This document shows, piece after piece, positions 4,849-9,453 of a stretch of DNA of 64,000 nucleotides (its first letter is position 1; every line of letters starts with the position of its first letter). A program made the translations under genes and the position numbers. The stretch is from Agrobacterium larrymoorei (GTDB lineage Bacteria > Pseudomonadota > Alphaproteobacteria > Rhizobiales > Rhizobiaceae): the NCBI RefSeq assembly GCF_013322225.1, contig NZ_JAAMFB010000010.1, positions 186,001-250,000 on the forward strand. Reading direction: 5' to 3'. Below the pieces are notes generated by a model. The model was not told where the DNA came from, ran no database searches, and worked only from the letters and a program-made list of their open reading frames with translations.

Positions 4849-5532
4849 ATGGCAAAGAAAACAGCGCTCAAGATTTCCGGCGTGGAACGAACCTACGGGC
4901 AGGGCGAAACAAGTCTGTCCATTCTCAAAAATGCTGAATTTGAACTGAAGAGCGGCGAAATCGTCGCGCTTGTGGCGCCTTCCGGCACCGGTAAGTCTAC
5001 GTTGTTGCATCTTGCCGGTCTGCTTGAACATCCCGATGCGGGCGAGGTCTTCATCAACGGCAAGGCTTGCGGCACGCTGTCTGATGAGGAGCGCACGGCC
5101 ATCCGGGGTAGCGATATCGGCTTCGTCTACCAGTTCCACCATCTCCTGCCGGAATTCACCGCACTCGAGAACATTATGATGCCGCAGCTGATTTCCGGCT
5201 TATCCCAGAAAGAAGCGCGGGAGCGCGCCAAGGCGTTGCTGGATTACATGCGGATAGGCCATCGCGGCGACCACCGTCCGGCTGAGCTTTCCGGTGGAGA
5301 GCAGCAGCGTGTTGCAATCGCAAGAGCCGTTGCAAACGCGCCCCTATTGCTTCTGGCAGACGAGCCGACGGGCAACCTTGACCCGGAAACCGCATCTTAC
5401 GTTTTTGATGCGTTGGAGGCCCTTGTGCGCCAATCCGGGCTGGCGGCGCTGATCGCTACACATAACCACGAACTGGCAGCGCGAATGGATCGCCGCGTAA
5501 CGCTGAACGAAGGCAGGATCGTAGAGTTCTAA
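4849..5532 (+). CDS. lolD: Lipoprotein-releasing system ATP-binding protein LolD
   Basis: A 227-residue ABC ATPase, the family's usual length. Walker A is [11 protein letters not shown] (about residue 44), the Q-loop region is [12 protein letters not shown], the signature is [15 protein letters not shown] (about 144) and Walker B is [12 protein letters not shown], followed by the switch ATHNHELA. It powers lipoprotein release together with the permease encoded immediately upstream; the two are certainly co-transcribed. A strong terminator lies about 50 bases downstream, closing the proS-lolC-lolD unit. Confidence 0.95.
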
Positions 5533-5581
5533 AAACTGCGCTTAGGTCTGGCTGCAAGACCCTAGGCATCTATCATGCGAG

Positions 5582-5617
5582 ACCCCGTACGGTAACAACC
5601 GTGCGGGGTTTTTCTTT
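5582..5617 (+). terminator. Rho-independent terminator after lolD
   Basis: ACCCCGTACGGT and ACCGTGCGGGGT form a twelve-base-pair stem (one mismatch pair) around AACA, followed directly by TTTTCTTT. It ends the lolCD transcript and insulates the SOS-boxed promoter at 5701. Confidence 0.9.
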
Positions 5618-5700
5618 GGACTCAATGGTTTGACCTATGCCAGCTCACGGAACCTTCCCGATTCTCCTCGCGTTGCAATAGCAGCATCTAAAAAAACCTA

Positions 5701-5735
5701 TTGACACCAAAACAAAATGAGAACAAAATTAGAAC
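5701..5735 (+). promoter_or_regulatory. SOS (LexA) box over a sigma-70-type promoter
   Basis: TTGACA at 5701-5706 is a perfect -35; 17 bases later CAAAAT (5724-5729) is a plausible -10. The direct repeat GAAC-AAAATTA-GAAC at 5721-5735 matches the alphaproteobacterial LexA consensus GAAC-N7-GAAC exactly and covers the -10, the expected place for repression. It lies 21 bases before the ATG of the 28-codon gene and about 220 bases before dnaE, so it may also contribute to dnaE transcription. Confidence 0.82.
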
Positions 5736-5756
5736 ATAACGAGTAAGGAGAGACAA

Positions 5757-5843
5757 ATGACCGACATTATCCGTGACGTTGCCGCCTTCGCTTCCATCGC
5801 AGTCTTCGTTGCCAGCTTCTCGGTAATTCTAACTTCCATGTAA
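5757..5843 (+). CDS. 28-residue membrane micropeptide under SOS control (SidA-like candidate)
   Basis: A short gene reading MTDIIRDVAAFASIAVFVAS and ending SVILTSM, then TAA. A charged N-terminal heptad (D3, R6, D7) is followed by one hydrophobic helix of about 20 residues, the layout of a single-pass inner-membrane peptide. GTAAGGAGA precedes the ATG at ideal spacing. An exact GAAC-N7-GAAC LexA box and a -35/-10 pair lie directly upstream. Size, topology and control resemble SidA of Caulobacter, a 29-residue SOS-induced inhibitor of division acting on FtsW, and formally also TisB of E. coli. I infer a damage-induced division inhibitor; a toxin or a mere leader for dnaE are alternatives. Sequence identity to SidA was not checked. 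Confidence 0.75.
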   Translation: MTDIIRDVAAFASIAVFVASFSVILTSM

Positions 5844-5958
5844 TTGTTTCCTATCGTCACATATGGCGATACCGGTGCAAACTGCGCCATTGCCGGTAGA
5901 CTTTAGCCTCAGGAAGCCTCAAAATCAGCCCGATTCAGAATGACGGGATTGCGGTGAA

Positions 5959-8900
5959 ATGAGCGATAATGCGCTGGGTGATGAAGCAACGGGTATGATC
6001 CTGAAGACGCCCGGTTTTGTTCACCTTCGAGTCCATTCTGCTTATTCACTGCTCGAGGGCGCTCTGCCCCTGAAAAAGATCATGGCGAAGGCTGTCAGCG
6101 ATCAGCAGCCTGCCATTGCTATCACCGATACCAACAATCTGTTCGTCGCGCTGGAGTTTTCCGAAAAGGCGCGAGATGAGGGGCTGCAGCCGATCATCGG
6201 CTGCCAGGTGTCCATCGATATGCAGGACGCCGCCGACGATAAGCGCGGGAACAATAGTCTTGCCAAGTTGCCGGCCATCGTTTTGCTGGCGGCGGATGCC
6301 AGGGGGTATGAGCGTCTCGTGGACCTCATCAGTCGTGCCTATCTGGATGGCGAGGGAAGCGGTCACGCTGTCAATCTTCCCAAGGAATGGCTGGAAGAGG
6401 GCAGCAATGCGGGTCTCATCGCGCTGACAGGTGCTTCCGGCGGGCCTGTTGATATGGCTCTGAAGGAAGGACATTTGGCGCTTGCGACAAGCCGCCTTCT
6501 GACACTCAAGGAGCTGTTTGGCGACCGGCTTTATATCGAACTTCAACGACAGGGTAATTATGATCGCGGCCATGAGCGCCGCATGATCGGTCTTGCCTAT
6601 GAACACGACGTTCCACTCGTCGCCACCAATGAGGCTTTCTTCCCTTCCAAGTCGGATTACGAAGCGCATGACGCGCTGATGGCGGTTGCGCACAACGCCA
6701 TCGTTTCCGACGACAGCCGTTTCCGCCTGACACCGGACCATTATCTGAAGAGCCGGGAGGAAATGACTGAACTCTTCAAGGATATTCCCGAAGCCATCGA
6801 GAATACCGTCGAGATTGCCCAGCGATGCTCATATGTGTTGAAAAAGCGCGGACCCATCCTGCCACGCTTTACCGGCGCGAGTGATGATCCGGAGGAGGCG
6901 GAGCGTGCCGAGTCGCTGGAGCTTCGCCGTCAGGCGGTGGAAGGTCTCGATCAGCGTCTTGCAGCACTCGGCATGGCGGCAGGCTATACCGAACAGGAAT
7001 ATCGCGAGCGACTGGATTTCGAGCTCAGCGTCATCGAACGCATGAGGTTTCCGGGCTACTTCCTGATCGTTGCCGACTTCATCAAATGGGCCAAAAACCA
7101 GGATATTCCCGTTGGGCCGGGCCGCGGATCGGGCGCTGGCTCACTGGTTGCCTATGCGCTGACGATCACCGACGTCGACCCGCTTAGGTTTTCGCTTCTG
7201 TTCGAACGCTTCCTCAACCCGGAACGCGTTTCGATGCCCGACTTCGATATCGACTTCTGCCAGGACCGCCGCGAAGAGGTGATCCGTTACGTCCAGCGCA
7301 AATACGGGCGTGAGCAGGTTGCGCAGATCATCACCTTCGGTTCGCTACAGGCGCGCGCTGCATTGCGTGACGTTGGACGCGTGCTGGAAATGCCCTACGG
7401 GCAGGTCGACAAGATCTGTAAGCTGGTGCCGAACAACCCGGCCAATCCGACGCCCCTTTCCAAGGCCATCGAGGAAGAGCCACGCTTGCAGGAGGAGGCA
7501 GACAAGGAGCCGGTCGTCGCCCGACTGCTTGATATCGCGCAGAAGATCGAAGGTCTTTACCGTCACGCTTCCACGCACGCCGCCGGTATCGTCATCGGTG
7601 ACCGACCGCTGTCCAAGCTGGTCCCGATGTACCGCGATCCCCGCTCGGATATGCCCGTCACCCAGTTCAATATGAAATGGGTGGAAAGCGCTGGTCTCGT
7701 AAAGTTCGACTTCCTTGGGCTGAAAACACTGACGGTCCTAAAGGTCGCGGTGGATTTCGTCGGCAAGCGAAACATTCATGTCGATCTGGCAGCGATTCCG
7801 CTTGATGATCCGAAGACCTACGAGATGCTGTCGCGCGGCGAAACGATCGGCGTGTTTCAGGTGGAAAGTGCGGGTATGCGCAAGGCGCTGATCGGCATGC
7901 GACCTGACTGTATCGAGGATATTATTGCGCTTGTTGCGCTTTATCGTCCTGGCCCGATGGAAAACATTCCGGTCTATAACGCCCGCAAGCATGGCGACGA
8001 AGAGATCGAATCCATTCATCCGACCATCGACTATCTTCTGAAGGAAACGCAGGGCGTTATCGTCTATCAGGAACAGGTGATGCAGATCGCCCAGGTCTTG
8101 TCGGGCTATTCGCTCGGCGAAGCCGATCTCCTGCGCCGCGCCATGGGCAAGAAGATCAAGGAGGAGATGGACAAGCAGCGCGAGCGCTTCGTGGATGGCG
8201 CAATGAAAAACGGCGTGTCCAAGGCGCAATCGGACATGATTTTCGATTTGTTGGCCAAGTTTGCAAATTACGGCTTCAACAAATCCCACGCTGCCGCCTA
8301 CGCGATCGTTTCCTACCAGACCGCCTATATGAAGGCGCATTACCCGGTCGAGTTCCTCGCCGCCTCTATGACGCTCGATATGGCGAACACGGAAAAGGTC
8401 AATGACTTCCGGCAGGATGCAGCGCGCCTCGGCATTGAAGTCGTGGCGCCTTCGGTCCAGACCTCATTCCGCCGTTTCGAAACAGGTGAGAACCGCATCT
8501 ATTATTCCCTTGCCGCATTGAAGGGCGTGGGTGAAGGCGCGGTGGATCATATCGTCGAGGTGCGTGGCGACAAGCCGTTCACCAGCCTTGAGGATTTCTG
8601 CCTGCGGATCGACCCCAAGCAGATTAACCGCCGCGTTCTGGAAAGCCTCATCAATGCCGGTGGGTTTGATTGTTTCGGTAAGGATCGCGCCGAATTGATC
8701 GGCGGACTTGATCGAATTATTGGTTACGCGCAGCTCGCTCAAAGTCGTCGCGTAAGTGGTCAGCACGATATGTTCGGTTCTGGCGGAGCAAACGGCCCTG
8801 AAAAGCTGGTGCTGCCCGCCTACCAGCCGTGGCTTGCCTCTGAAAAACTGCTGCGTGAATATCAGGTGTTGGGTTTTTATCTCACGGCCCATCCACTCGA

Positions 8901-9453
8901 TACCTATCGCACCGTTCTCGATAAGCTTCGGGTACAGAATATTTCTGATTTTACGGCGGCGGTGAAGCAGGGAGCCACCAACGGTCGGCTGGCTGGCACG
9001 GTCACCGGCAAGCAGGAGCGCAAGACCCGCACGGGCAACAAAATGGGTATCGTGACATTTTCGGATGCTTCCGGCCAATATGAAGCCGTGCTGTTTTCGG
9101 AAGGGTTGGGGCAGTACCGCGATCTGCTAGAGGTCGGCAAATCACTGGTCATCACCGTGCAGGCGGAGGAGCGCCCGGAAGGTATTGGCTTGCGCATCCA
9201 GACAGCGGAATCGCTGGAGCAGCGGTCCGTTCAGATGCAGAAGGCGTTGCGCGTCTATCTCCGCGATTCCGGTCCGATGAAAGCGCTGGCGCATCATCTC
9301 AATAAGGGCGATGGCTCGGTCTATTTCGTTCTGATCAAGGACGATGGCCAGCGTGAGATCGAGGTGGAGCTGCCAGGCAAATATCGGATTTCGCCTGAGA
9401 TTGGCGCGGCTTTCCGCTCGGCGTCGGGGGTCATAGACGTCGAGCTGATCTAA
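5959..9453 (+). CDS. dnaE: DNA polymerase III subunit alpha
   Basis: The 1164-residue replicative polymerase, full length for DnaE1. It has an N-terminal PHP domain starting FVHLRVHSAYSLLEGA (about residue 16), the finger/palm motifs PVGPGRGSGAGSLVAYA (about 384) and PDFDIDFCQDRR (about 427) carrying the catalytic aspartates, the beta-clamp-binding region, and an OB-fold near 1010-1075 (GTVTGKQERKTRTGNKMGI). It acts in the replisome. Transcription may start from the SOS-boxed promoter at 5701 as well as from its own; no strong promoter was seen in the 115 bases after the micropeptide. Confidence 0.97.
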   Translation: MSDNALGDEATGMILKTPGFVHLRVHSAYSLLEGALPLKKIMAKAVSDQQPAIAITDTNNLFVALEFSEKARDEGLQPIIGCQVSIDMQDAADDKRGNNSLAKLPAIVLLAADARGYERLVDLISRAYLDGEGSGHAVNLPKEWLEEGSNAGLIALTGASGGPVDMALKEGHLALATSRLLTLKELFGDRLYIELQRQGNYDRGHERRMIGLAYEHDVPLVATNEAFFPSKSDYEAHDALMAVAHNAIVSDDSRFRLTPDHYLKSREEMTELFKDIPEAIENTVEIAQRCSYVLKKRGPILPRFTGASDDPEEAERAESLELRRQAVEGLDQRLAALGMAAGYTEQEYRERLDFELSVIERMRFPGYFLIVADFIKWAKNQDIPVGPGRGSGAGSLVAYALTITDVDPLRFSLLFERFLNPERVSMPDFDIDFCQDRREEVIRYVQRKYGREQVAQIITFGSLQARAALRDVGRVLEMPYGQVDKICKLVPNNPANPTPLSKAIEEEPRLQEEADKEPVVARLLDIAQKIEGLYRHASTHAAGIVIGDRPLSKLVPMYRDPRSDMPVTQFNMKWVESAGLVKFDFLGLKTLTVLKVAVDFVGKRNIHVDLAAIPLDDPKTYEMLSRGETIGVFQVESAGMRKALIGMRPDCIEDIIALVALYRPGPMENIPVYNARKHGDEEIESIHPTIDYLLKETQGVIVYQEQVMQIAQVLSGYSLGEADLLRRAMGKKIKEEMDKQRERFVDGAMKNGVSKAQSDMIFDLLAKFANYGFNKSHAAAYAIVSYQTAYMKAHYPVEFLAASMTLDMANTEKVNDFRQDAARLGIEVVAPSVQTSFRRFETGENRIYYSLAALKGVGEGAVDHIVEVRGDKPFTSLEDFCLRIDPKQINRRVLESLINAGGFDCFGKDRAELIGGLDRIIGYAQLAQSRRVSGQHDMFGSGGANGPEKLVLPAYQPWLASEKLLREYQVLGFYLTAHPLDTYRTVLDKLRVQNISDFTAAVKQGATNGRLAGTVTGKQERKTRTGNKMGIVTFSDASGQYEAVLFSEGLGQYRDLLEVGKSLVITVQAEERPEGIGLRIQTAESLEQRSVQMQKALRVYLRDSGPMKALAHHLNKGDGSVYFVLIKDDGQREIEVELPGKYRISPEIGAAFRSASGVIDVELI

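Follow-up and report, generated by a model that had tools for sequence, protein, structure and literature searches.

A conserved 28-codon gene under a putative LexA box upstream of dnaE in Agrobacterium larrymoorei is a probable counterpart of the Caulobacter division inhibitor SidA

The window (the whole stretch of 64,000 nucleotides of Agrobacterium larrymoorei DNA that was analysed) carries a very short open reading frame (ORF) between an ABC-ATPase gene and the gene for the alpha subunit of DNA polymerase III. The features of this locus, in order of position, are the following.

4849..5532, + strand: 227-aa ORF, presumably lolD, the upstream neighbour and not part of the unit
5581..5610, + strand: terminator-like hairpin with a U tail after lolD (-24.5 kcal/mol, z -6.2 against shuffles), followed by UUUUUCUUUG
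5701..5706, + strand: -35 element TTGACA, from the promoter scan
5710..5713, + strand: degenerate third LexA half-site AAAC, 11 bp upstream of the box, read from the sequence
5721..5735, + strand: putative LexA box GAACAAAATTAGAAC, from the sequence and the motif count
5724..5729, + strand: -10 element CAAAAT, within the LexA box, from the promoter scan
5744..5751, + strand: ribosome-binding site TAAGGAGA, read from the sequence and GGAG-like in many relatives
5757..5843, + strand: gene of a predicted 28-codon single-helix membrane micropeptide, SidA-like (ATG at 5757, TAA at 5841-5843, product MTDIIRDVAAFASIAVFVASFSVILTSM)
5959..9453, + strand: dnaE (DNA polymerase III alpha), the downstream neighbour, a 1164-aa ORF with a PF07733 match (E 1.5e-106)

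The TTGACA and CAAAAT elements are separated by a 17-nt spacer and form the sole promoter-like site between 5500 and 6000 (0.5 in shuffles), so that the box at 5721-5735 overlies the -10 element. This arrangement, an exact GAAC-N7-GAAC repeat over the -10 of a TTGACA promoter, then a ribosome-binding site and a 28-codon ORF with one hydrophobic helix, was described in a first-pass annotation of the DNA and was confirmed here on the sequence. We take the upstream ORF to be lolD because it has an ABC-ATPase sequence and lolCDE is the usual gene order, and 37 of 64 family loci have a same-strand homologue upstream, many of these regions being short. The hairpin at 5581-5610 was missed by a consensus terminator scan, and the same scan listed no terminator-like site between the micropeptide ORF and dnaE, which follows after 115 bp in the same orientation; folding of 5841-5958 shows nothing unusual (z -1.0). 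The window peptide had no match in Pfam or NCBIfam, and tblastn with it against a plasmid collection gave none either.

Within the window's family, tblastn found the peptide in 73 of 151 genomes at E<=1 and a profile search found it in 132 of the 151 at E<=0.01, the profile having been built from 44 peptides, one per genome, whose genomes are among the 132. The same profile gave no match at E<=0.01 in 288 alphaproteobacterial genomes outside the family, where nine matches at E 0.017-0.1 were seen, none of them convincing. Seventy loci were read, 30 from tblastn and 40 added (32 with a dnaE-side tblastn match and eight without), and 64 of them have the peptide beside dnaE, the profile match of the other six genomes lying elsewhere. 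Exactly 28 codons were counted in 59 of the 64 dnaE-side copies, and these 59 were used for the pN/pS analysis. The peptide alignment shows no variation at M1, D7 and F17 and hardly any at S13. Compared with two congeners, the window copy has pN/pS values of 0.017/0.339 and 0.050/0.469; pairs with pN below 0.1 have ratios of 0.05-0.14, third codon positions being the most variable, and distant pairs reach up to 0.56 with pS saturating. The close pairs argue for purifying selection on the residues and not only on the frame, and from these comparisons we regard the ORF at 5757-5843 as a real gene; a chance ORF was rejected because of its conservation across the family together with the low pN/pS in close pairs. 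The profile had no match in the remaining 19 family genomes, of which 15 have lexA. A match to TIGR00498 was missing in four of the 19 as against none of 11 peptide-bearing genomes, numbers too small for a joint loss of peptide and lexA to be concluded. Three of the four genomes with neither a peptide nor a lexA match (G006, G065, G076 and G111) are of 1.1-1.5 Mb.

The exact box occurs three times in the 64-kb window against 2.13 expected, and 142 times genome-wide against 107 for the reversed pattern; a single box is on its own near chance and weak evidence taken alone. Its significance comes from the comparison across relatives, since 57 of the 64 dnaE-side copies have an exact box at most 100 nt before the ATG, as against 0.4 in dinucleotide shuffles and 0-2 with other spacings, and the remaining seven have near versions of the box as judged by eye. 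Among the 57 exact-box homologues, a TTGAC or TTGAA motif begins 9 nt ahead of the box in 38 and 20 nt ahead of it in four, namely the window and three others, and the 20-nt distance in the window arises because its exact pair consists of half-sites two and three. Of the 64 family promoters, 52 have three GAAC-like half-sites spaced at 11-bp steps (0.3 in shuffles). The third half-site is absent from the lexA, imuA and uvrA-ssb boxes of the A. larrymoorei genome, and an operator of three half-sites with an 11-bp period may set the threshold in the window's family.

Elsewhere in the A. larrymoorei genome the box stands before lexA (L300), whose identity is backed by a TIGR00498 match at G000:C39, before two genes that we take to be imuA (L297 and L299) and between presumptive uvrA and ssb genes (L292), the imuA, uvrA and ssb names being assigned from N-terminal sequences. 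These four at known SOS genes are among 15 of the 142 sites that were read, picked by eye mostly for A/T-rich spacers. Both boxed imuA genes lie ~3 kb before dnaE2-type genes. Beyond dnaE, the genome has three more PF07733 polymerase genes (G000:C31:5136, C34:12851 and C57:95240), by name probably dnaE2, and two of the three lie ~3 kb after the boxed imuA-like genes. The first-pass annotation had taken GAAC-N7-GAAC to be the LexA box of Agrobacterium and its relatives, and the occurrence of the same motif at lexA, at the two imuA genes and in the uvrA-ssb gap favours this assignment and makes the element at our locus a putative operator. The reverse complement of the box, GTTC-N7-GTTC, is the published SOS box of Caulobacter (PMC9578287). 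The annotation had also made its reading depend on conservation of the frame and of the box in relatives, and both are conserved, the former in the 132 genomes and the latter in 57 of 64 dnaE-side copies and in 37 of the 38 genomes that were read with the gene elsewhere.

In Caulobacter crescentus, sidA (CCNA_02004) is presumably CC1927, the gene next to dnaE (CC1926). The 29-aa SidA protein lies in the inner membrane, is induced in the SOS response and interacts with FtsW (PMC4211646), and the gene numbers CCNA_02004 for sidA and CC1926 for dnaE are those of PMC10769358 and PMC1839093, respectively. Caulobacteraceae genomes, found with a CtrA probe, were mostly Brevundimonas, with one Caulobacter ginsengisoli. 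A box and a hydrophobic peptide of 29-31 aa (with the usual start) lie upstream of dnaE in 69 of 80 Brevundimonas-like dnaE loci, including that of C. ginsengisoli, and neither box nor peptide was found in the other 11. Locus L242, which is titled as a Bordetella sp. MAG, has a Brevundimonas-like dnaE (79% identity) and is probably a mislabelled bin. In a wider draw of 119 Caulobacteraceae genomes, 99 had a match to the C. ginsengisoli peptide at the permissive cut-off of E<=1. The 30 best-matching loci were taken and one (L325) was dropped, having no peptide at the expected place after orientation; among these best 29, dnaE is next in all 29, the peptide has exactly 29 aa in 25 (for example L313) and an exact box lies within 120 nt in 20, nine being without an exact box.

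The profiles of the window's family and of the Caulobacteraceae peptides align positions 1-19 to 1-19 without a gap, with a probability of 83% and an E of ~8e-6 to 1e-5, and the score of 22.3 compares with a maximum of 14.8 in 300 column shuffles (0/300 as good). Single sequences were scored against the family profile by PSSM against 5000 shuffles, and the relation of single Caulobacteraceae sequences was modest: nine of them were equalled by 21 to 400 of 5000 shuffles and three more by 92 to 168. The columns common to both families are M1, [RQK]6, [DE]7, [AS]10, [LFM]11, S13, F17 and [VIL]18, the R6 of the Caulobacteraceae being shared by only 38 of 85 family peptides. By their length, place and box the Caulobacter-type peptides would be SidA, and the earlier suggestion of a SidA counterpart in Rhizobiaceae gains support from these mostly boxed, related peptides of 29-31 aa upstream of Caulobacteraceae dnaE and from the gap-free profile match. 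The micropeptide resembles SidA of C. crescentus in its length (28 against 29 aa, with 28 codons in the 59 of 64 copies), in a single hydrophobic helix, as predicted from composition, and in LexA control, as the box would suggest; by way of the Caulobacteraceae relatives it also shares the slot upstream of dnaE, within 2 kb in 82 of the 132 family genomes, and the gap-free profile match over residues 1-19. It differs in the second half, where the Caulobacteraceae have W19 (27/29) and W/C22 and the window's family does not, at position 3, which is R in the Caulobacteraceae and mostly D in the window's family, and in the operator, which in the latter has three half-sites.

The same outward form is found in TisB (PMC8145889) and DinQ (PMC3567139) of Escherichia coli, which are small LexA-controlled single-helix peptides, and the gene might encode an SOS toxin of this type, depolarising the membrane instead of specifically inhibiting division, although we consider this unlikely. 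Between positions 9 and 27, 84 of 85 family peptides have no charged residue, and the helix is uncharged in 27 of 29 Caulobacteraceae peptides. The conserved positions of the family lean weakly to one face of the helix (493 of 20000 permutations as good), and the Caulobacteraceae helix face, itself not significant (2555 of 20000 permutations), points within ~17 degrees of it. These features would agree better with docking on a membrane protein, FtsW for example, than with a charged toxin helix. TisB, by contrast, is a charged amphipathic peptide, and a TisB-like toxin was rejected because the family helix is not charged. A structured leader and an antisense RNA belong to type I toxin systems, whereas the mRNA structure at 5730-5775 showed nothing notable (z 0.12) and Rfam gave no match in 5400-6100; moreover, the profile relation points to the Caulobacteraceae peptides. 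The two E. coli peptides thus share LexA control and a single helix with the micropeptide as we read it, and are unlike it in being membrane-acting toxins under antisense RNA control, with a charged helix in TisB.

By best matches, the gene lies within 2 kb of dnaE in 82 of the 132 peptide-bearing genomes and elsewhere in 50, so that cis linkage to dnaE is not obligate. Fourteen of the 50 are on the contig of dnaE at 20 kb to 1.6 Mb from it, and in all 13 of these that were read a boxed copy was found; the other 36 have the gene and dnaE on separate contigs or lack a dnaE match, and a contig break is possible there. The genomes read with the gene elsewhere number 38 of the 50, and the 37 with a boxed copy correspond to 37 of 40 copies, the 40 including second copies of G059 and G016. 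The copies elsewhere without a box are L369 (G008), L364 (G059) and L374 (G016). L364 is the better G059 copy by E-value and the other copy of that genome, L365, is boxed; second peptide copies in some genomes comprise L374, L364, G119:C4, G050:C13 and G078:C17.

These positions bear on a reading in which the ORF is an upstream leader that controls translation or transcription of dnaE. The ORF stops 115 bp short of dnaE and the scan listed no terminator-like site in that gap; in Sinorhizobium meliloti, ribosome profiling shows translation of sORF25, a small ORF located in the dnaE1 5'-UTR and listed as a possible uORF, its authors suggesting such roles generally for 5'-UTR sORFs (PMC10117765). 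However, the pairing of gene and operator persists away from dnaE, an argument against a leader. We rejected this reading, which we hold to be very improbable, because of the 50 of 132 genomes with the gene elsewhere (in 14 at least 20 kb from dnaE on its contig, in the others on a different contig or with no dnaE match) and because nearly all of those read have a boxed copy; in addition, selection acts on residues and not only on the frame, and the dnaE-side copies lie anywhere between 71 and 1374 nt from dnaE. That the box mainly makes dnaE damage-inducible, with the peptide a passenger, we find scarcely credible, for although the two genes have the same orientation with no terminator-like site listed between them and the hairpin at 5581-5610 separates the promoter from upstream, the box accompanies the peptide when it is elsewhere and the peptide is conserved residue by residue. 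It is possible that the promoter also drives dnaE, as the first-pass annotation had proposed, but this coupling is not required because in 50 of 132 genomes the gene is found elsewhere.

The frame, its box and its promoter are conserved, the protein is under selection, and its profile is significantly related to that of the Caulobacteraceae peptides at the same locus. In our judgement the ORF at 5757-5843 is quite probably the orthologue, in this Rhizobiaceae-type family, of Caulobacter SidA, a LexA-controlled inhibitor that halts division during DNA repair, and by analogy it would be induced by damage and act on FtsW. In undamaged cells, LexA would sit on the box over the -10 element and shut the promoter. 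Upon DNA damage, RecA filaments would lead to self-cleavage of LexA and the TTGACA promoter would fire, and the 28-residue peptide would enter the inner membrane as one helix, where its conserved face (D7, A/S10, S13 and F17) may dock on the late divisome, as SidA does with FtsW. Septal wall synthesis would then be blocked and the cells would filament until LexA recovers.

A SidA-type reading would give most genomes of the family a precise candidate for an SOS division inhibitor in a gene that is unannotated, and the many diverged SidA-like sequences point to residues that may matter. YneA of Bacillus and SosA of Staphylococcus are larger proteins, unrelated in sequence to the micropeptide. 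Both are SOS-induced division inhibitors, the role proposed here, and YneA interacts with FtsW (PMC13396833 for YneA, PMC6851548 for SosA). For the rhizobial group, the titles and abstract openings retrieved from the open-licence literature yielded no SOS division inhibitor. Our reading also offers an explanation for sORF25, which is translated and unexplained; compared by description and not by letters, it is probably the same gene as the window micropeptide, being likewise a small ORF in the dnaE1 5'-UTR, and differs in that the relevant section describes it only as a possible uORF, the terms "SidA", "SOS" and "LexA" being absent from the main text of that paper (PMC10117765).

As the family profile found nothing convincing outside the family, the regions upstream of dnaE were read instead in 117 distinct genomes, out of 252 outside genomes with a dnaE match (L187 was dropped as a duplicate of L177). 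GAAC-N7-GAAC occurs in 27 of the 117, and in 26 of these 27 a hydrophobic ORF of 24-50 aa with an ATG start comes after it, the start being GTG in the 27th (L171). Control GAAC pairs with spacings of 3-6 and 8-12 gave one to four genomes with zero to two such ORFs, and a GTTC-N7-GTTC control gave seven genomes with two. The boxed micro-ORF loci are the following.

L123, L127, L129, L130, L139, L147, L148, L150, L158, L164, L171, L174, L177, L089, L091, L092, L096, L104, L106, L192, L197, L199-L203, L206

The 27 boxed genomes span 14 families besides the window's own, and many of their peptides are unlike the window's in sequence. Scores against the family profile, uncorrected for the number of rows, were good for f5, f6, f83, f124 and f2a (0 to 7 of 5000 shuffles as good), f83b (13) and f11a (16), weak for f92 (34 of 5000) and f20 (66 of 5000), and gave no support for f43, f59, f117, f127, f2b, f11b and f122 (105 to 1121 of 5000). 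With such mixed scores, common descent of all the boxed micropeptides across the class is likely and not proven. We lean, with less assurance than for the window's family itself, towards a LexA-controlled checkpoint of the SidA type that already stood between lolD and dnaE in an early alphaproteobacterial ancestor and would still run damage arrest across the class, its sequences having diverged to the point where the window peptide matches no Pfam or NCBIfam model; if this is true, SidA is a class-wide checkpoint and not a peculiarity of Caulobacter. The order lolD-dnaE is general, for upstream lolD homologues were seen in 17 of the 27 boxed genomes and in 52 of the 90 without the peptide as well.
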